Positions 26,711 through 43,013 of a DNA stretch of 64,000 nt are shown one piece after another (the first letter of the stretch is position 1; each line of letters starts with the position of its first letter). Under the pieces are notes generated by a model. The model ran no database searches. It was not told where the DNA came from and worked only from the letters and a program-made list of their open reading frames with translations. Made by a program: the position numbers and the translations under genes. The DNA is from Streptomyces diastatochromogenes (GTDB lineage Bacteria; Actinomycetota; Actinomycetes; Streptomycetales; Streptomycetaceae). The stretch is from NCBI GenBank assembly GCA_001418405.1, contig LIQL01000042.1, positions 1-64,000 of the forward strand. Reading direction: 5' to 3'.

Positions 26711-26866
26711 GCCGAGCTCCCTCAGAAGGGCGGATACGGGAACGGCATCGTCCCTGCTGATCCGGACAGTCCCCGCCAGCCCGCCCGGCGGGGCTGGGGT
26801 TGTCCGGTTTCGCGGTGATCATGCGCCGGGGTCACCACGGGGGTGGCTCGTCAGGAGGTCACGTCC

Positions 26867-27289
26867 ATGTCCGCTGAACACGTCGTCGATCCCGGTCCTG
26901 GGTACAGCGATCCGGACTCTGCACCGCAGGTGCTGGCGGAGTACGCAAGCTGGGGAACGGTCACGGCGCCCAGTTCGGAGCATCCATGGCCGACGCTGGT
27001 GCTGGGGAACGACGAGAGGGAGCTGCATCTCGCACTCGACCGAGAACTTCTGGATGACCTGCTGGTGGAGCTCGCCGGCCACGCGGAAGACAGCGACGAC
27101 AGCACGTCCGAGGATGTGGAGATGGAGGAGCGGCGGCCGCTCACAAGACGGCTTGGTTCCAAGGCGGTCTCGGCGTCCGGGTGGCCAGTGACTTCCCGCT
27201 GGTGGCGATCGGCCGAGTCGAACACGCGGATCATCGTGGCCGGGATCATCGCGGCCGTCATGGTGCTCGGGCTCCTGGTGACCTTCTGA
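26867..27289 (+). CDS. small C-terminally anchored membrane protein
   Basis: A 140-residue protein with a polar, acidic N-terminal 115 residues and one hydrophobic segment at the very end (IIVAGIIAAVMVLGLLVTF). The ATG at 26867 is chosen over an upstream GTG because AGGAGGT precedes it. It would be inserted after translation with its bulk in the cytoplasm. The soluble part has PWPTLVLGNDERELHLALDR and then LLDDLLVELAG, with no recognised domain. The role is unknown; its neighbours are an exporter (convergent) and a hypothetical gene (divergent). Confidence 0.7.
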   Translation: MSAEHVVDPGPGYSDPDSAPQVLAEYASWGTVTAPSSEHPWPTLVLGNDERELHLALDRELLDDLLVELAGHAEDSDDSTSEDVEMEERRPLTRRLGSKAVSASGWPVTSRWWRSAESNTRIIVAGIIAAVMVLGLLVTF

Positions 27290-27356: not shown

Positions 27357-28598
27357 TCAGACCCGGGGTGTGCTCGTGCGCAGAGCGCGGTGCAGGGGGC
27401 GGCAGGCGGCAACGGCGATCAGGGCAGTGCACAGGAGTAGCGCGGCGACCAGGGGGCGACCTCCGGCGTTGAGGGCGAGCGCGACACCGATGGGCGGAAG
27501 GGAGGCCACTGCGCTGGCGCCGCTGAGTACGGCCTGGTATCGGCCGGTTGCGTGCTGGGGGGCGTATGTGGAGATGTACCCGGCGAGTGCGACGGAGAAG
27601 GCGATCTCGCCAGGTACGAGGAGGGCCGCAGCGAGGGAGTACCCGAGGGTGGTGTGCTGCAGGGCGGCGATGCTGATGCCGAGGCCGAGGATGCCGCAGC
27701 CTGCCGCCAGGATCGGAACGATGGGATATCGAGGCGTATCGCCTGCCCCGACGAGGAGCCGGGTGAGGAGCGGGGTAAAGACCAGGACGGTGATGGTGTT
27801 GGCCAGCATGGCCACGCCGTACGTGGTCGGGGGTAGCCCGTCGGCGGTCATCAGCAGAGGTAGCACGGAAACCAGGCCCCAGGCACAGGTCATGCCGCAC
27901 ACGGCGGCGAGAGCGATCCAGCGCAGCGAGCGATCGCCGAACACCTCTCGGTACGTGGTGCTCGGCGCACTCCGGTGCGACGTACGCGAACCGGCATCCC
28001 GCTGGGGCAGCACGCGGTGAGCGACAGCGGCGAAGGCGATGCAGGCCAGGCCGTTGAGGACGAACAGGAACCGGTAGCCCGAGTGGGACGCCAAGTAGCC
28101 GCCGATCGCCGCGCAGATCGCGATGCCCACATTCGATGCCCAGTAGAGCCACGCCTGCGCGCGGGTGCGGCCGGCCTCGGTGGTGATCGTGTCGTTGATC
28201 GCTGCTGAGACTGCCGGCCGGTGGACTTCCATGCTCATGCCGAGGAAGCACGAGACGGCAAGCAGGGCGGGGAGCGATTCGACGAGGGCGAGGGCGAAGC
28301 ACGCCAACGACGACAGAGCCATGAGCAGGGTCAGGGCGGTGCGCTGCCCAAACCGGTCGGTGAGGGTGCCGGCCGTGGCCAGACCAGCGCACCAGCCGAT
28401 GCCGAAGCAGGTGAGGGCGGCCCCCACGGCCGTCGTTCCGTGGCCGAGACTGTCGCCGATGAAGTAGCCCAGGAAGTCCCAGGCGAATCCGAACCCTTTG
28501 ATGACGAGCGAGGAACCGATCAGGACCCAGACAACGGACTTGGCGGCACTCGGTCTGGAGTCGGTGATGGCGGGGGCGGTGTCGGTGGTGGTGGCCAT
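27357..28598 (-). CDS. MFS transporter, probable drug or metabolite exporter
   Basis: A 413-residue membrane protein with about 12 hydrophobic segments. The MFS loop 2-3 motif is seen as GTLTDRFGQRTALTLL near 75-90. The ATG at 28598 follows AAGGAGA. Upstream on the same transcript are a 19-residue leader peptide, a hairpin on its stop codon and a 16-base-pair hairpin, which suggests attenuation-type control; a 30-base palindrome and an IclR regulator gene lie further upstream. The set resembles inducible efflux. The substrate is unknown. Confidence 0.88.
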   Translation of the reverse strand: MATTTDTAPAITDSRPSAAKSVVWVLIGSSLVIKGFGFAWDFLGYFIGDSLGHGTTAVGAALTCFGIGWCAGLATAGTLTDRFGQRTALTLLMALSSLACFALALVESLPALLAVSCFLGMSMEVHRPAVSAAINDTITTEAGRTRAQAWLYWASNVGIAICAAIGGYLASHSGYRFLFVLNGLACIAFAAVAHRVLPQRDAGSRTSHRSAPSTTYREVFGDRSLRWIALAAVCGMTCAWGLVSVLPLLMTADGLPPTTYGVAMLANTITVLVFTPLLTRLLVGAGDTPRYPIVPILAAGCGILGLGISIAALQHTTLGYSLAAALLVPGEIAFSVALAGYISTYAPQHATGRYQAVLSGASAVASLPPIGVALALNAGGRPLVAALLLCTALIAVAACRPLHRALRTSTPRV

Positions 28599-28650
28599 GC
28601 CGGAGTTCTCCTTGCAGGCATGGCCTGCGGGTGTGAGCGAGTTGGACAGC

Positions 28651-28687
28651 ACGAAGGCGGCCGTGCCCAGAGCACGGCCGCCTTCGT
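28651..28687 (-). promoter_or_regulatory. attenuator hairpin before the MFS gene
   Basis: A perfect 16-base stem: 28651-28666 pairs with 28672-28687, loop of five bases. It lies between the leader peptide stop and the MFS start and is strong enough to end transcription. Since it precedes the exporter, it would act as a conditional terminator rather than as an ordinary gene end. Confidence 0.75.
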
Positions 28688-28695
28688 CAGTGGTT

Positions 28696-28716
28696 GTCCG
28701 TAAGGGGGTTACGGAC
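28696..28716 (-). promoter_or_regulatory. hairpin overlapping the leader stop codon
   Basis: GTCCGTAA (28709-28716 on the minus strand) pairs perfectly with TTACGGAC (28696-28703) around a five-base C loop. The leader's TAA lies in the first arm, so a ribosome reaching or stalling at the end of the leader would open this structure. Confidence 0.65.
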
Positions 28717-28768
28717 GCTGAGCGCGAACGGATCGGACCGATCGGGCGGACTTGCGGTAAGGGCGCAT
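28709..28768 (-). CDS. 19-residue leader peptide upstream of the MFS gene
   Basis: The short frame encodes MRPYRKSARSVRSVRAQRP and ends at TAA. It has the best ribosome site in the area: GAAGGAGGT seven bases before the ATG at 28768. The peptide carries six arginines and a doubled R-S-V unit, which could slow or stall ribosomes. Its stop is in a hairpin and a strong attenuator hairpin follows before the exporter. A regulatory leader is the best reading. A small exported or signalling peptide carried by the adjacent MFS protein is a less likely alternative. Confidence 0.65.
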   Translation of the reverse strand: MRPYRKSARSVRSVRAQRP

Positions 28769-28867
28769 GACGGGCACCTCCTTCGTGAAGCGAAGTTCCC
28801 CGCGGCTGCGGGGGTGGTGCGACGGTATGAGCCGGGCAGGGAGCCGGGCGACGGACCATGGCCGCAT

Positions 28868-28897
28868 CGGCATGACTTCGACGTTGAATTCATGCCG
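28868..28897. promoter_or_regulatory. 30-base palindrome, likely IclR operator
   Basis: CGGCATGA and TCATGCCG flank a 14-base centre that is itself largely symmetric; 13 of 15 positions pair. It lies 100 bases upstream of the leader peptide and 73 bases beyond the end of the IclR-type gene, where the leader-MFS promoter should be. Length and symmetry fit an IclR dimer or tetramer site. Confidence 0.6.
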
Positions 28898-28969
28898 CCT
28901 CGGAATACCGGGCATTTCGCGCTTCGGTCTGGCCTAGACGGGGCGCGGTGACCGTGGCGACGGGCGCGG

Positions 28970-29809
28970 TCACGCGGCATCCGTGTGCGGCAAGCCGGGC
29001 TGGCTGCCGCCATCCGCCGTCCATCGGCTCCAAGCGGGGGCGCTGGCCATCCGCACGGCTGCGCGTCGGAGCAGCACGGCGAAGTCGGAGGCGGTGAGCT
29101 GGTCGGCGAAGCAGCCTGCCGCGCCGGTGACGGTGAGCGTCGCGACGGCCATGTCGCCTCGGAGGATCGGGGTGGCCAGAGCCCATGTGTCCGGCCCACG
29201 GCTTGCGGCTACACGGTTCTTTCGGATCGACTCCTGGAGCCTGGGTTCCAGGAGCAGCGGCTCGCCCAGGGCGTCGCAGGCGAGGGCCCCGCTGTTGAAC
29301 GTGACCGCGGCCCGCCCGGCCGCGGACTTCCGGAGATCATGGTGCGACTGCTCGACGGTGTCCCGAAGATGCAGGTTGGGGCAGACCATGTCGACGAGTT
29401 CCAGGTACATGCCGGTGCCCGGACGCCAGCCAGTTTCGTGGTATGCCACAGCCAGCCCTGTTTCCAGGGCCAGGTGCTGCACGGTCTCGTGGACAAGGGG
29501 AGTGCTGGACCGCGTGCTGACCTGGACACCGAGGACCTCGCTCGGCAGCACGTATGTGCCGTATCGCTCACCGTGCCGTACGAGCCCTTCGTTGACGGCG
29601 GCACGCAGCAGCCGTGAGGCGTGCGGCTGTTGAAGGCCAGCCTTGCTGGCGATGACACCAACCTGGTGCTCCTGGTCCAGCCCCAGTTCGGCCAGAGCGA
29701 GCACCACGCGCATCCCGGCTCGTGCAGAGCGATGGGGCTGCGGTGCCCCGTCAGGGCCGAGGGCTGACGGGATTCCCCTGGTGAAGGGCTTGGTAGCGAT
29801 GGCTGGCAT
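28970..29809 (-). CDS. IclR-family transcriptional regulator
   Basis: A 279-residue protein with an N-terminal winged HTH (about 28-95: VVLALAELGLDQEHQVGVIA, then LQQPHASRLLRAAVNEGLVR) and a C-terminal effector-binding domain with TVQHLALETGLAVAYHETGW near 125 and CDALGEPLLLEPRLQESIRK near 195. IclR proteins usually repress a neighbouring gene until a small ligand binds. The target is probably the leader-MFS unit, through the palindrome at 28868-28897. ATG at 29809 follows GGAGTG. The effector is unknown. Confidence 0.88.
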   Translation of the reverse strand: MPAIATKPFTRGIPSALGPDGAPQPHRSARAGMRVVLALAELGLDQEHQVGVIASKAGLQQPHASRLLRAAVNEGLVRHGERYGTYVLPSEVLGVQVSTRSSTPLVHETVQHLALETGLAVAYHETGWRPGTGMYLELVDMVCPNLHLRDTVEQSHHDLRKSAAGRAAVTFNSGALACDALGEPLLLEPRLQESIRKNRVAASRGPDTWALATPILRGDMAVATLTVTGAAGCFADQLTASDFAVLLRRAAVRMASAPAWSRWTADGGSQPGLPHTDAA

Positions 29810-29892: not shown

Positions 29893-30084
29893 TCAGGTCC
29901 AGTGGTGTCGGCGGCGGCGCGGCTCCGTTTCGGCCTCCCGCTCGTCGTCGATTTGCTGCTGGATGTCGGGGTGGTAGCGGGGCTCGAGGAAGATGCCCTG
30001 CCACTGGGGCTTCGGGGATAGCGGCTCTCGACGTGGCCGGAGAGGACGCGGGCGGCCGCGGCTCGGCTGCGCTGCAGATGTCAC
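29893..30084 (-). CDS. small basic hypothetical protein, 63 residues
   Basis: A likely small gene started by GTG at 30084, with AGAGGAA upstream. The first half is Arg/Pro-rich and disordered; the second half, QWQGIFLEPRYHPDIQQQID with a charged helix after it, looks constrained. The end is Arg/His-rich. No family is known. The competing frame at 29840-30148 looks like low-complexity shadow sequence. It lies between the IclR gene and the secreted SH3-like gene. Confidence 0.45.
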   Translation of the reverse strand: MTSAAQPSRGRPRPLRPRREPLSPKPQWQGIFLEPRYHPDIQQQIDDEREAETEPRRRRHHWT

Positions 30085-30202
30085 TTTGTCGGTTCCTCTC
30101 CGAGGGGTCCGCTGGGCGAGAAGTTGATGTGTGGTGATCGGAGGACAACCTCCGTGGGCTCCGTCAGCCGCGCCGCCTCGACCTGTGGCACTGTGCGGGC
30201 TT

Positions 30203-30236
30203 GCTGTGCCCGGAGACGCATGTCCCCGGGCACAGC
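30203..30236 (-). terminator. terminator hairpin after the SH3-like gene
   Basis: An 11-base perfect stem (30203-30213 with 30226-30236, core GCTGTGCCCGG) and a 12-base loop lie 11 bases past the stop of the secreted protein gene. Confidence 0.65.
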
Positions 30237-30246
30237 GGATGATCAT

Positions 30247-30594
30247 CTAGTCCAAGCACATGTACACGTCCCGGTACACGTAACTCTGGCTGGCCCAGCC
30301 GCGTACGCCGGTGGTGAGGTCGGTGACGTTGACCCATGAGCCGCTCGTGGAGTGGACCTTGAAGCGGTGCCCCTTGTAGAGGACTCCCACAGCCTTGGAG
30401 TTGGTGGTCGCCTTGCTGCGCAGGTTGACGGCGTTGGTGTGGATCTCCCACGGGCCGACCCTGTCGCATGCGCGGCTGGCCTTCATCGCGGTGGGTGCGG
30501 ACGTTGGGGCGGCACTGGCCGCGGGGGCTGCCAGGACCGGCAGCGCGACCGCGGCGGCGGTCGCGGCCAGGACAGATATCCGGCGCGCATTCAT
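30247..30594 (-). CDS. secreted SH3-like domain protein
   Basis: A 115-residue protein with a clear signal peptide: basic MNARR, a hydrophobic core VLAATAAAVALPVLAAPA and an AxA-type cleavage site near 26-29. The mature part is one bacterial SH3-like domain: VNLRSKATTNSKAVGVLYKG and VRGWASQSYVY. Single SH3 proteins of this type are common secreted proteins in Streptomyces and may bind cell-wall material. Two cysteines bracket the domain. ATG at 30594 follows GGAGG. The gene is single, between terminators. Confidence 0.85.
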   Translation of the reverse strand: MNARRISVLAATAAAVALPVLAAPAASAAPTSAPTAMKASRACDRVGPWEIHTNAVNLRSKATTNSKAVGVLYKGHRFKVHSTSGSWVNVTDLTTGVRGWASQSYVYRDVYMCLD

Positions 30595-30686: not shown

Positions 30687-31457
30687 TCAGGCGGCGGCGT
30701 CGTTCTCGCGCCGCGCGGTGCGGCGCTTGCTGAGTCCGGCCGCGCCCAGGGCGGCCAACCCAGCGGCGAGCAGGCCGCCGGCCGCGAGACCGAGTGTGGA
30801 GTTTCCGTCCGCGCCCGTGTGCGCAAGCGAGCCGCTCGGCTTACTGTCCGCGACGTTCTGCGTGTCGCCGGTCGGCTTGGCCGTACCGGACGAGTCGCTG
30901 CTGTCCGCCTCGGCACCACCGCCGTTCCCACCGGCCTCGCTACCGCCGCCGGTGGAACCGCCCTGTCCACTACCCGACCCGCCGTCCGGCTTCGAATCAC
31001 CGTCCCCGCTCGGGTCCGGCTTCGGATCGGGCTTCGGGTCCGGCTTCGGATCGGGCTTCGGGTCCGGGGTCGGATCCGTTCCCGGGTCGGTGCCGGGGTC
31101 CGGCTTGCTCGGGTCCGTGCCCGGATCGGTACCGGGGTCCGGCTTGCTCGGATCGGTACCGGGGTCGGTGCCGGGGTCCGGCTTGCTCGGGTCCGTTCCC
31201 GGGTCGGTGCCCGGATCGGGCTTGCTCGGGTCCGTGCCCGGATCGGTCGGCGGCTCGTCGCCGTCCGCCTTGGGCTCGGCGGCCTTCGCCGCAGTCGCCT
31301 TGGCATCGGCCGTCGGACCGGACGTCACCTTGCTTTGCGTCGTCACCTCCGCAGCGGACGCTCCGACCGTGGACACTCCCAGTACGCCGGCAGCCATCAC
31401 GGCGACCGACGCCGCCTGCACCATGCGTCGGCGCGGTGCTGCGTGCTTCCTACTCAT
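30687..31457 (-). CDS. LAHTG-anchored surface protein with Asp-Pro repeats
   Basis: A 256-residue secreted protein. Residues 1-36 are a signal peptide. Residues about 71-150 are a low-complexity stalk built from a 13-residue DPGTDPGTDPSKP unit (about four copies), then PDPK units. LAHTG near 210 is followed by a hydrophobic segment and KRRTARR: the LAxTG signal used by class E sortases in actinomycetes. There is no recognisable binding domain, so it may be a wall spacer. The sortase at 61396-62256 is 30 kb away and need not be its partner. Confidence 0.88.
   Translation of the reverse strand: MSRKHAAPRRRMVQAASVAVMAAGVLGVSTVGASAAEVTTQSKVTSGPTADAKATAAKAAEPKADGDEPPTDPGTDPSKPDPGTDPGTDPSKPDPGTDPGTDPSKPDPGTDPGTDPSKPDPGTDPGTDPTPDPKPDPKPDPKPDPKPDPSGDGDSKPDGGSGSGQGGSTGGGSEAGGNGGGAEADSSDSSGTAKPTGDTQNVADSKPSGSLAHTGADGNSTLGLAAGGLLAAGLAALGAAGLSKRRTARRENDAAA
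31008..31247 (-). repeat. tandem repeat coding the Asp-Pro stalk
   Basis: Four near-identical 39-base units code DPGTDPGTDPSKP, followed by shorter six- to twelve-base PDPK units. Copies differ mainly at synonymous positions. Such repeats vary in number between strains and are prone to assembly error. Confidence 0.85.
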
Positions 31458-35361: not shown

Positions 35362-35820
35362 TCAGATGGTCGTCTGTCGCCAGGTGTCCAGGACGGCCTG
35401 GACGGCGCTGGAGACTTGAGTCTGCTGGCCGTTGTCCGCCCACAGGTGGGCGTCATGCTCGCTGAGTGTCACCGTCTGCCCGGTGACGGTGGCGGTGAAG
35501 TTGTACTGGCGGGTGCGGCGGCCCGAGAAGGAGCGGTAGTCGAAGTGCCCCAGGTAGGTGCCTACTTCGGTCACGGTCAGGCCGGTCTCCTCGGCGACTT
35601 CGCGCCCCAGGGCCTCGATCAGGCTCTCGCCGGACTCGACACCGCCGGAGGGCAGCTCCCACAGCCCGCCGAGGTAGTCGTCGGCCGGCCGGTGCAACAG
35701 CAGCACCTTGCTGTCCTCGCTGGCGATGACGGCGCCGACGACGGTCTTCTCGATGCTGTCCCGCGCTGCGGTGCGGGCGAGGTCGTCCAGGAAGTCGGGG
35801 GTGACGGTGGAGGGGGTCAC
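35362..35820 (-). CDS. Nudix hydrolase
   Basis: A 152-residue Nudix protein. The Nudix box occupies residues 59-81 and fits the consensus: GG at 59-60, E63 and G-E at 65-66, then LGREVAEETGL with the metal-binding glutamates. DYLGGLWELPSGGVESGES is a typical approach. The enzyme cleaves a nucleoside diphosphate linked to another group, perhaps a nucleotide-sugar or a damaged nucleotide. GTG overlaps the DegT stop (GTGA), so it belongs to the aminotransferase/oxidoreductase operon and may clean up its NDP-sugar intermediates. Confidence 0.92.
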   Translation of the reverse strand: MTPSTVTPDFLDDLARTAARDSIEKTVVGAVIASEDSKVLLLHRPADDYLGGLWELPSGGVESGESLIEALGREVAEETGLTVTEVGTYLGHFDYRSFSGRRTRQYNFTATVTGQTVTLSEHDAHLWADNGQQTQVSSAVQAVLDTWRQTTI

Positions 35821-37070
35821 GACAGATCCTTCGCGTGGATTGCGACTTTGGCGATGGCGGTGGTGTAGGCGTCGGCGAGGCGGACGTCGTCCGCCCCGCT
35901 CCAGACCGGCAGTTTCAGCGTCGTGGCGTGCACGTGCTCCGCTGCCGGGAAACCGTCGCCGGGCAGGTGGTGGCCGTCAGCGTAGCCGGGCAGCAGGGAC
36001 CCGGGGGCCTGGAAGAGCGGATGCGTGTGCAGCGGGCAGGTGGAGCCCGGCTGGTCGGCTTCGGTGGCGCCTTCGGCGTGGAGGGCATCAAGGAACCGCT
36101 CGATCGGCAGCCCGCCGAGTTCGGCGGGCTCGTAGCGCAGCGACAGCGCGTACCACGACGCCCGCGCGGCGGCCGGTACGTCCGGGACGCGGATGCCGGG
36201 GACGCCGTCCAGGGCCGCGCACATCCGGGCCGCGATCGTCTGACGCCCGGTGAGGTGGTCCTCCAAACGAGTGAGCTGGGTGCAGGCGAGGGCTGCGGCC
36301 AGCGGATGGATGCGCAGTTTCAGCCCCATGCCGGTGACCGCATAGCGAGCAAGCGGGTGGGTGGCCGGGATCTCGCGGCGGCACCGCTTGTTGAACTGGC
36401 TGTGCAGCAGCACCCGGTAGTACAGCTCGGTGTCGTCGGTGGCGACGAAGCCGCCCTCGCCGGCGGACAGCGGCTTGGGCCCGTTGAGGCTGAACGCCGA
36501 GGCGGTGCCGAAGGTGCCGACCATCTGGCGGTTCCAGGTGGCGCCGTGGGCATGGGAGCCGTCCTCCAGCAGCATCAACTCGTGCTCGTCGGCGAACGAG
36601 GTCAGCGCGTCCATGTCCTCCGGCAGCCCCCACAGGTGCACGGCCACCACCGCCTTCGTCCGGGCGGTGATGCGGCGTGCGGCGTCTTCCAGGTCGAGCT
36701 GGCCGCGGTCGTCGACGTCGGCGAGGACAGGGTGGGCGCCGAGGTGGAAGAGCGGAGTGGCGGTGGCGTGGAAGGTGAGGGCCGGGACGATGACCTCGTC
36801 GCCGGGTCCGATGCCAGCGGCCGCGTACATCGAGTGCAGCGCGGCCGTCCCCGTGCAGGTGGTCACCACGTGCCGGACAGCGAGGTAGGAGGCGAGCGCG
36901 TCCTCCAGATCGGCGATGACGCCGGAGCGGTCCGGGATGGAGACGGCCGTCTCCAGCTGGGCGGCCACGGCCCCGCGGTCAGACTCGGTGATCGGCGGCC
37001 ACGTGAAGTGCGGGCCGGGGGCCGTGATGGCCGGGGTGCCGCCGAGCACGGCCAGCGTGGAGTCGTTCAT
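35817..37070 (-). CDS. DegT/DnrJ/EryC1/StrS family sugar aminotransferase
   Basis: A 417-residue PLP enzyme. The cofactor lysine is K199 in SLNGPKPLSAGEGG, the ring-contacting aspartate is in LLEDGSHAHG near 168-177, and TCTGTAALHSMYAAAGIGPG near 71-90 is the phosphate-binding region. The family moves an amino group from glutamate or glutamine to a keto-sugar, often for antibiotics or glycans. It overlaps the Gfo/Idh/MocA gene by four bases, which could supply a 3-keto-sugar as in kanosamine-type routes. Exact substrate unknown. Confidence 0.92.
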   Translation of the reverse strand: MNDSTLAVLGGTPAITAPGPHFTWPPITESDRGAVAAQLETAVSIPDRSGVIADLEDALASYLAVRHVVTTCTGTAALHSMYAAAGIGPGDEVIVPALTFHATATPLFHLGAHPVLADVDDRGQLDLEDAARRITARTKAVVAVHLWGLPEDMDALTSFADEHELMLLEDGSHAHGATWNRQMVGTFGTASAFSLNGPKPLSAGEGGFVATDDTELYYRVLLHSQFNKRCRREIPATHPLARYAVTGMGLKLRIHPLAAALACTQLTRLEDHLTGRQTIAARMCAALDGVPGIRVPDVPAAARASWYALSLRYEPAELGGLPIERFLDALHAEGATEADQPGSTCPLHTHPLFQAPGSLLPGYADGHHLPGDGFPAAEHVHATTLKLPVWSGADDVRLADAYTTAIAKVAIHAKDLS

Positions 37071-38068
37071 GCCAGGTACTCCTTGGGGTCGGCGGGACGG
37101 TTGGTGGCAGCGGAGGCGTAGGCGGCGGCCAGGAACGCGGCGTGCGGCAGGTGCTCGGCCGGGCCCGAGGGGTTGGTGGCGGTGCCGTCGAGGACGCGGC
37201 AGAAGCGGTCGATCAGCGCGGCGGGCGGGCAGGGCCAGGCCGGTTCGCGCAGCAGGGACTCGACGACCTGTCCAGCCGGGTCGAGGAGGCGCACGACGCC
37301 GTGGTCGAGTGTGAGCGTGCCATGGGGGCCGGTGATGGCCAGGTGCTCTGTCTTCGGCCCGGCCGAGCGGGAGACCAGCAGCGATCCGTATAGCCCGTGG
37401 TCGTAGGCGAGATGGACGAGGGCGGTGTCCTCCGCGTCGTACTCAGCCTCCGGTACTGCGGCGGCCGAAATGTCGGCGAGGACGCGGTCAGGCAGGCCGA
37501 GGTACCACAGGAGCAGGTCGATGAGGTGGTAGCCCATGTCGGCCAGGCACCCGCCGCCGGCGAGCTTCGCACGGCCGCGCCAGCCGGCGGCGGGGTCCGG
37601 GCAGTGGAAGGTGTAGCGGCCCTCGACCAGGTACGGGTCGCCGATGCGTTCCAGCAGGGCGAGCGTGGCCGCGTAGACGGGGTGGAAGCGGCGCTGGACG
37701 GTGACCATCAGCTCGATCCCTGCCCTCTCGCACAGCGCGGCCAGCTCAGCGGCCTCGCGCGGGTCGGTGGCGAACGGCTTCTCCTTCAGCACGTGCACCC
37801 CCTCCTTGGCACACGCGGCGACCACGTCCCGGCCGACATGGTGCGGCACCGCGACAATGACGAAGTCCGGCCGCACTTCCTGAAGCAGCTGCTCGATGTC
37901 GGTGAAGCCCGGCACCTGGTGCCTGCCGGCCACGGCAGAGACCCGCTCGGCGTCCACGTCGCAGACGCCGGCGAGCTCGGCGAGATGACACTGGGCAAGG
38001 CCGGGAAGGTGGTCGCCGGTGGCTTGGCCGCCGAGCCCCACCACGGCGGCCCTCTTGTGCACGGTCAT
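37067..38068 (-). CDS. Gfo/Idh/MocA family NAD(P)-dependent oxidoreductase
   Basis: A 333-residue sugar dehydrogenase-type protein. The N-terminal Rossmann strand is AAVVGLGGQATGDH near 7-20, the E-K-P motif is at about 96-98 (VLKEKPFATDP), and DMGYHLIDLLLWYLG near 175-189 carries the catalytic Asp-x-x-x-His pattern. It oxidises or reduces a sugar or inositol hydroxyl. As first gene of the operon with DegT aminotransferase and Nudix, it probably makes the keto-sugar to be aminated. The ATG at 38068 faces an XRE regulator across a palindrome-containing promoter region. Confidence 0.9.
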   Translation of the reverse strand: MTVHKRAAVVGLGGQATGDHLPGLAQCHLAELAGVCDVDAERVSAVAGRHQVPGFTDIEQLLQEVRPDFVIVAVPHHVGRDVVAACAKEGVHVLKEKPFATDPREAAELAALCERAGIELMVTVQRRFHPVYAATLALLERIGDPYLVEGRYTFHCPDPAAGWRGRAKLAGGGCLADMGYHLIDLLLWYLGLPDRVLADISAAAVPEAEYDAEDTALVHLAYDHGLYGSLLVSRSAGPKTEHLAITGPHGTLTLDHGVVRLLDPAGQVVESLLREPAWPCPPAALIDRFCRVLDGTATNPSGPAEHLPHAAFLAAAYASAATNRPADPKEYLA

Positions 38069-42935: not shown

Positions 42936-43013
42936 TGGTAGCGGGGGCAGGATTTGAACCATGCGACCTCTGGGTTATGAGCCCAGCGAGCTACCGAGCT
43001 GCTCCACCCCGCG
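42936..43013 (-). tRNA. initiator tRNA-Met (CAT) with an extra base in the T stem; possibly pseudogene
   Basis: The minus strand reads CGCGGGGTGGAGCAGCTCGG onward: an initiator tRNA with unpaired C1, D loop, anticodon stem GGG/CCC and anticodon CAT, and a CCA end. In the T arm, the stem should be GCAGG-TTCAAAT-CCTGC, but the gene has GCATGG, an extra T at 42961-42962. That bulges the stem and may stop folding. A strong hairpin follows. Extra or damaged tRNA copies occur at ends of integrated elements, which often use the tRNA 3' part as attachment site. A functional second copy is possible. Confidence 0.75.

Follow-up and report, generated by a model that had tools for sequence, protein, structure and literature searches.

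How is a putative exporter gene controlled when a short open reading frame and strong hairpins precede its start codon? This question is raised by a locus of Streptomyces diastatochromogenes found in the window, i.e., the whole stretch of 64,000 nucleotides of contig LIQL01000042.1 that was analysed. We favour, with a probability of about 0.6, the view that this locus forms the regulatory 5' leader of an efflux module of the plasmid type, which would be subject to two controls. One would be exerted by a regulator encoded next to the leader, the other by the ribosomes that translate a short arginine-rich peptide.

Organization of the locus

On the minus strand, the gene of an IclR-like regulator is followed by a dyad, a -10-like box, a small GC hairpin, a ribosome-binding site (RBS), the leader, two hairpins and the MFS gene (Table 1). 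From its sequence, the product of this last gene is an MFS transporter and a putative exporter. It exceeds the Pfam MFS_1 cut-off of 33.4 bits, and its best NCBIfam match, Bcr/CflA efflux, reaches 50.5 bits, under the cut-off of 200.9. An earlier note on this DNA had pointed out a 19-codon leader with a near-perfect ribosome site, one hairpin overlapping the leader stop codon, another of 16 perfect bp ahead of the MFS start and a 30-nt palindrome upstream. All four are borne out in the window, the leader by direct reading of the minus strand.

Table 1. Coordinates of the features proposed to control the MFS gene in the window.
Feature	Position	Strand	Remarks
IclR-like winged-helix regulator gene, 279 aa	28970..29809	-	HTH_IclR 14.9 bits; proposed partner of the dyad
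30-nt dyad, proposed operator	28868..28897	.	13/15 positions complementary; 0/500 shuffles equal
-10-like box TACCGT (TAnnnT)	28822..28827	-	TAnnnT at the matching place in 12/12 loci
5' hairpin CCCCGC/GCGGGG at the inferred mRNA start	28798..28813	-	counterpart stem in 10/12 loci
Leader ribosome-binding site AAGGAGGTG	28775..28783	-	direct reading; GGAGG to ATG = 8 nt
Leader ORF MRPYRKSARSVRSVRAQRP, 19 codons	28709..28768	-	ATG 28768, stop TAA 28711-28709; leaders at 12 homologous loci
8-bp perfect hairpin, 5' arm holding the leader stop codon	28696..28716	-	z = -3.30 in the window
16-bp perfect Watson-Crick GC-rich hairpin, 5-nt loop, proposed U-poor terminator/attenuator	28651..28687	-	-34.9 kcal/mol
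MFS transporter gene, 413 aa	27357..28598	-	Pfam MFS_1 123.2 bits; ATG 28598

The 16-bp hairpin reaches 17 pairs if the closing T-G is counted, and 52 nt separate it from the MFS start. As a whole, the leader region (196 nt) folds to -85.4 kcal/mol (z = -3.94), a stability equalled by 0 of 200 shuffles. The search of Rfam with positions 28300-29200 gave no family at gathering score, the best being symR (24.6 bits vs 61).

Distribution of the leader among related transporter loci

Among 392 genomes of the genus, 5 encode a match to the MFS protein of the window at E <= 1e-60; among 394 of the family, 6 match the MFS protein of a close relative, L021, at E <= 1e-80. The window's own genome is included in both counts. 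In plasmid records, 25 have an MFS match at E <= 1e-20, and 17 of them were examined (the nine best and eight weaker ones). After merging of the loci present twice, each counted once (L011/L014 with L023, L047 with L026, L009/L010 with L017), 16 distinct loci with an MFS identity of at least 50% were obtained. It should be noted that the gene calls of L020 and L043-L052 come from homology and not from annotation, and that the MFS matches of L047 and L048 each contain one in-frame stop, so that these genes may be disrupted or prematurely terminated.

At 12 of these 16 loci (window, L018, L019, L020, L021, L022, L023, L024, L025, L043, L044 and L048), a leader with its RBS is followed by a strong hairpin, which lies 45-66 nt ahead of the MFS start. 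The members of this count are not independent: L020 nearly duplicates L022, and a single clade comprises L019, L021, L024 and L043. Of the 12, L044 belongs to a different genus from the window. The earlier note had made its proposal depend on the conservation of the leader frame in relatives, and these 12 loci provide it. Judged by this comparison, the association of leader and hairpin before the MFS gene is not due to chance.

The four other loci, L015, L017 (from S. diastatochromogenes), L026 and L051 (= L045), have no leader, although part of the hairpin sequence persists by eye in L045/L051, which was scored as leader-less. All four also lack the regulator gene, which indicates that the exporter gene can be retained without both. 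In the same way, a comparable leader was found in 0 of the 9 remoter MFS loci (L013 and eight others, about 35-41% identity).

Conservation and composition of the leader peptide

The 12 leaders encode the peptides MRPYRKSARSVRSVRAQRP, MRPCRNRPYRAQRPA, MRPCRKSSVRSVRSVRLSRPA, MRPYRKTNRPG (twice), MRPCRKSSVRSVRSVRFVRP, MRPMDTLDARPFRPFDLARP, MRPCRKSSVRSVRSVRFVSPL, MTRPYRNRPYNV, MRPYRKSSVRCVRSVR, MRPCRKSVRSVRSVRKVA and MRPNRIRPNRRPNRALRPNRAVRPN. They start with M(T)RPxR in 11 of 12 cases, the exception being L023, range from 11 to 25 residues and diverge widely in their C-terminal halves. Within a clade of four alignable leaders (16 codons), 9 of the 11 variable columns are third codon positions and only 2 codons change the residue, vs 6.7 expected under random placement (P = 1.5e-4). 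The near-identical pair L020/L022 adds one leader change, a synonymous one, which carries little weight (P = 0.28). Such a third-position bias is expected if the peptide is translated. The leader is therefore conserved as an Arg/Pro-rich peptide that is predicted to be translated, and its residues appear to be held by selection.

Arginine represents 60 of the 197 leader residues (30%, start Met excluded) vs 255 of 3202 in nine neighbouring proteins (8%); unlike these proteins, the leaders are nearly devoid of glycine (2 of 197). The description of the leader as Arg/Ser/Val-rich given by the earlier note is thus right for arginine, within the Arg/Pro-rich M(T)RPxR pattern of 11 of 12 leaders, and does not hold for the Ser-Val-Arg part, which is found in 6 of 12 only. 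As regards an arginine attenuator, the codon that would be sensed is enriched, whereas the target gene encodes an MFS transporter and not a function of arginine metabolism or charging. Furthermore, no gene annotated for arginine metabolism lies within about 4 kb of the module in nine plasmid stretches, eight of which are annotated. The tryptophan synthase alpha genes seen near several of these modules prompted us to consider a tryptophan attenuator, which is ruled out by the leader composition (Trp 0 of 197 residues).

The motif +x+ is known as a macrolide stall motif, and by eye it is not conserved across the leaders. The stop codon is TAA in 9 of 12 leaders vs 7 of 201 control genes. TAA is read by both release factors, so stalling at the leader stop codon would not be favoured.

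A search of 392 genomes with the leader pattern matched 8 genomes. The match in the window's own genome is the true leader; the seven others have GAG or GAC directly before the ATG and look like one unrelated coding motif. In the literature, where subscription journals were thinly covered, no description of M(T)RPxR leaders or of MRPYRK was found, and likewise no Arg-rich leader before an exporter in titles and abstract openings. The leader sequence family appears to be new, and would work like a known kind of system.

A conserved hairpin as candidate terminator

All 12 leader loci have a counterpart of the 16-bp hairpin. In their alignment, 93.9% of the cells are standard pairs, both sides change at 4 of 15 pairs, and covariation reaches 0.159 vs 0.013-0.033 when the partners are slid. 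The lower stem is almost invariant and covariation comes mainly from the upper stem, in which two pairs fail in 4 and 6 of the 12 loci. As far as can be judged from these alignments, the hairpin between the leader and the MFS start is conserved with compensatory changes.

No U-run follows the 16-bp hairpin, and the terminator scan gave 0 terminator-like sites. The same is true for most relatives, with fewer than 3 U in the first eight bases of the tail at 9 of 12 loci (manual count); the 18 bases after the hairpin are C-rich and G-poor at most loci (CTGTCCGCCCCC-like, by eye). In Streptomyces, U-poor hairpins at transcript ends have been named HS-U-lack (PMC8269248). According to the accessible part of this paper, they make up 353 of the 535 highly structured transcript ends of S. 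clavuligerus and could be I-shaped terminators or ends of Rho-dependent transcripts. The existence of this class makes termination at a hairpin with such a U-poor tail plausible, and the 16-bp hairpin plausibly fits a U-poor Streptomyces terminator, for which it is a candidate only.

As a control, 400 kb of another chromosome of the genus were scanned, where 15 perfect hairpins of at least 15 bp occur (about 1 per 27 kb). Hairpins of at least 13 bp number 21 and lie in convergent gaps (7), tandem gaps (9), divergent gaps (3) or inside genes (2), convergent gaps being the smallest background class; the genes were crudely called by GC3, with a coding fraction of 0.72. This placement fits a role at transcript ends, without proving it.

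The two other hairpins of the leader region are less constant. The mean z of the stop-codon hairpin over the 12 loci is -1.09 (combined -3.77 under an assumption of independence that fails), and pairs enclosing the leader stop codon are not above shuffles in any of the 12. Ten of the 12 loci have a 5' stem of 6-8 bp (G-U allowed) at -39 to -48; L018 and L025 have none there.

A regulator gene and a putative operator

The regulator gene is found upstream of the module in 11 of the 16 MFS loci, the ten others sharing 43-60% identity with that of the window. All 11 of these loci have the leader, as against 1 of the 5 that lack the regulator (L048/L052), an association with a Fisher P of 0.0027, kinship among loci being ignored. 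In the plasmid collection, the regulator occurs in 8 records, all 8 carrying the leader-MFS module. Across the order, it was found in 2 of 391 genomes, both of the window's genus; the example from another genus, L050, comes from separate searches.

The earlier note had placed an IclR gene here. The gene is real and retained, but its IclR membership is not upheld: HTH_IclR scores 14.9 bits for the window's protein and 21.5 for that of L021, both below the Pfam cut-off of 22, and matches 5 of 8 regulator homologues at E <= 0.1. The protein is therefore named IclR-like only, as a predicted winged-helix regulator. A profile search of the PDB with the 8 regulators gave 0 matches at E <= 0.01, and a single-sequence structure prediction (mean pLDDT 32.5) was set aside.

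The hexamer TAnnnT lies 53-61 nt upstream of the leader ATG in 12 of 12 loci, as the single match within the 25 nt searched in each. It corresponds to the -10 motif of S. lividans (PMC8079986, in its accessible part). Transcription would start near 28815. With 22-nt arms and 130 nt searched, a dyad is centred 54-55 bp upstream of this box in 8 of 12 loci, a figure that stems from this arm length, since with 15-nt arms the best dyad falls there in 5 of 12 and clearly beats shuffles in 3. Each of the eight dyads is equalled at that place by at most 9 of 500 shuffles; that of L023 is tied with another place. If any position within the 130 nt is allowed, shuffles do as well as L019 in 216 and as L023 in 120 of 500 cases, so that these two dyads do not stand out. 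A convincing dyad is missing at 54-55 bp in L020, L022, L044 and L048. The earlier observation of a palindrome near a regulator gene hence extends to most relatives, with the dyad at a fixed place.

With a transcription start about 12-13 nt past the box's first T, the centre of the dyad would lie near -66. A position near -66 is usual for activators. The IclR-like regulator would bind the dyad, with its centre about 66 bp before the start, and would most likely act as an activator because the dyad lies upstream of the would-be -35 box.

How translation of the leader could control the exporter gene

Besides this proposed control by the regulator, an attenuation of the MFS gene that responds to ribosomes is probable. 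When the leader is translated normally, the hairpin would end or strongly attenuate transcription, and ribosomes slowed in the leader would allow more read-through into the exporter gene. Either a drug that acts on the M(T)RPxR peptide during its synthesis or a shortage of charged tRNA-Arg could slow the ribosomes.

The distance from the leader stop to the hairpin is 6, 16-21, 47 or 59 nt according to the locus. It amounts to 16-59 nt at 11 of 12 loci, all but L018 (6 nt). A ribosome on the leader would thus hardly cover the hairpin, and even one halted at the stop codon is unlikely to do so directly; control by stalling would call for an antiterminator. A conserved antiterminator was not found among the 12 loci, whether by pairing probabilities or by energy cost. 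The mean probability that the 5' arm of the hairpin pairs with the leader ORF before the 3' arm is made varies from 0.00 to 0.68 (0.63, 0.24, 0.30, 0.00, 0.39, 0.01, 0.43, 0.68, 0.59, 0.00, 0.47 and 0.20 in the 12 loci). With the ribosome placed at the most favourable stall codon, which is not the same in all loci, 7.6-17.2 kcal/mol would be needed to dissolve the hairpin; the true attenuator trpL of E. coli, used as a control, gave 8.4 kcal/mol, so this cost does not discriminate. A pairing of the leader RBS with the 3' arm of the hairpin, 8 bp long in the window, was also considered and is absent from relatives by eye. The earlier statement that stalling prevents the hairpin therefore finds no support here as formulated, the distances being mostly too long for covering.

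Ribosome-responsive attenuation has to be weighed against an explanation that we regard as unlikely but as the most serious alternative. The hairpin could be a fixed element of the transcript (a polar hairpin or a protector of the mRNA end), the leader would merely tune translation of the MFS gene or mRNA stability, and the regulator bound at the dyad would be the real switch. Such a scheme accommodates the lack of a conserved antiterminator, the joint travel of regulator and leader and the constant distance from dyad to box in 8 of 12 loci. However, a passive element requires neither leader residues that appear to be under selection nor such an extreme composition, and L048/L052 retains the leader and the hairpin without any regulator.

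A more improbable variant is that leader translation acts through Rho or through translational control, as for toiL-topAI of E. coli. The place of the ribosome would alter access to the MFS RBS or to a C-rich Rho site past the hairpin, in a region that is C-rich and G-poor by eye at most loci. Control of this type by a uORF has been published for E. coli (PMC12121999, in its accessible part), but it would leave a conserved hairpin with compensating changes without a clear role. Finally, that the short ORF encodes a cationic Arg/Pro peptide acting in trans and exported by the MFS protein is very improbable. The shared M(T)RPxR start of 11 of 12, the Arg/Pro-rich body and the one trans-acting leader peptide reported in the accessible part of PMC7298713 speak for it, the length of 11-25 residues and the widely different C-terminal halves against it.

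Returning to ribosome-responsive attenuation, a bolder extension, to which we give little credence, is that M(T)RPxR leaders form a new class of sensor peptides on Streptomyces plasmids. They would report a shortage of arginyl-tRNA or an arginine-like or ribosome-binding toxin, and the opening of the exporter would also need the dedicated activator, i.e., an AND gate combining a ligand and translation stress. If the leader did sense arginyl-tRNA or an arginine-like toxin, this would be an unusual input for an exporter gene. Annotating leader peptides that respond to drugs or charged tRNAs is difficult, and any newly recognized conserved family offers a ready sensor. In the present case, 12 natural leader variants (two of them identical peptides), a regulator site whose position is constant in most of them and relatives without leader and regulator make the inducer and the logic directly approachable.

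Relationship with known attenuators

Leader-dependent attenuation of Streptomyces resistance genes has been described for wblC (PMC11550727) and are5sc (PMC12421871). In the accessible text of PMC11550727, the wblC/whiB7 attenuator resembles the present locus by its short ORF and its terminator in the 5' leader of an actinomycete resistance gene, and it responds to antibiotics and to amino-acid starvation. However, its target is a transcription factor and an antiterminator has been described, whereas here the target is an MFS exporter, a regulator is encoded next to the leader and no conserved antiterminator was found. In the same way, the attenuators of the ARE ABCF genes are5sc and tiaA combine a uORF and a predicted hairpin switch before a Streptomyces resistance gene. 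Their leaders, MLV and MVGDDDISG, stall at the start codon, while the present ones are conserved, Arg-rich and 11-25 residues long. The transcriptional reporter of tiaA was constitutive, according to the part of PMC12421871 at hand.

The leaders leuL, trpL, alaL, ilvL, metL and thrL of S. lividans (PMC8079986) are also comparable, each being enriched in one residue and followed by a hairpin, several of them without a U-run. These leaders precede biosynthesis, tRNA-ligase or uptake genes; in the accessible part of that paper, 0 of 8 depend on arginine and 0 of 8 precede an exporter. Ribosome-mediated transcriptional attenuation before a drug transporter is known for bmrC/bmrD of Bacillus subtilis (excerpts of PMC4191407). 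This transporter is of the ABC type and from Bacillus, and the likeness drawn here concerns the mode of control.

Genetic context of the module

Genes encoding the alpha subunit of tryptophan synthase lie near the module in L018 (6002-6811), L020 (762-1508), L022 (698-1546), L049 (3202-3996), L050 (2701-3441) and L017 (7254-8045); some of these loci also contain a GmrSD_C/HNH gene. The annotation of the nine plasmid stretches (eight annotated) shows no gene for the beta subunit. In L018, a tryptophan synthase alpha gene and a second MFS gene lie between the MFS gene and the homologue of the gene at 26843-27289 of the window, where these two genes are directly adjacent. Three trpA-like genes occur in the genome of the window, none of them on its contig.

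Remoter plasmid relatives of the MFS gene (L027-L034) have, according to the locus, ATP-grasp, GNAT, histidine decarboxylase, DUF6875, EgtD or SH3-domain neighbours, which suggests small-molecule clusters on Streptomyces plasmids. In the window, the small ORF at 29893-30246, upstream of the regulator gene, has counterparts in L017 (62% over 48 aa) and L018 (49% over 35 aa) and no Pfam match. An SH3-domain protein at 30247-30594 adjoins the ORF at 30687-31457, which contains Asp-Pro-Gly-Thr repeats and a C-terminal LAHTG followed by a hydrophobic stretch, resembling by eye a wall-sorting signal. Further away, a trio at 35362-38068 comprises a NUDIX-like ORF (by eye), a DegT/DnrJ aminotransferase and a Gfo/Idh/MocA oxidoreductase. 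The sole tRNA gene found in the window is a tRNA-Met (CAT) at 42936-43013.
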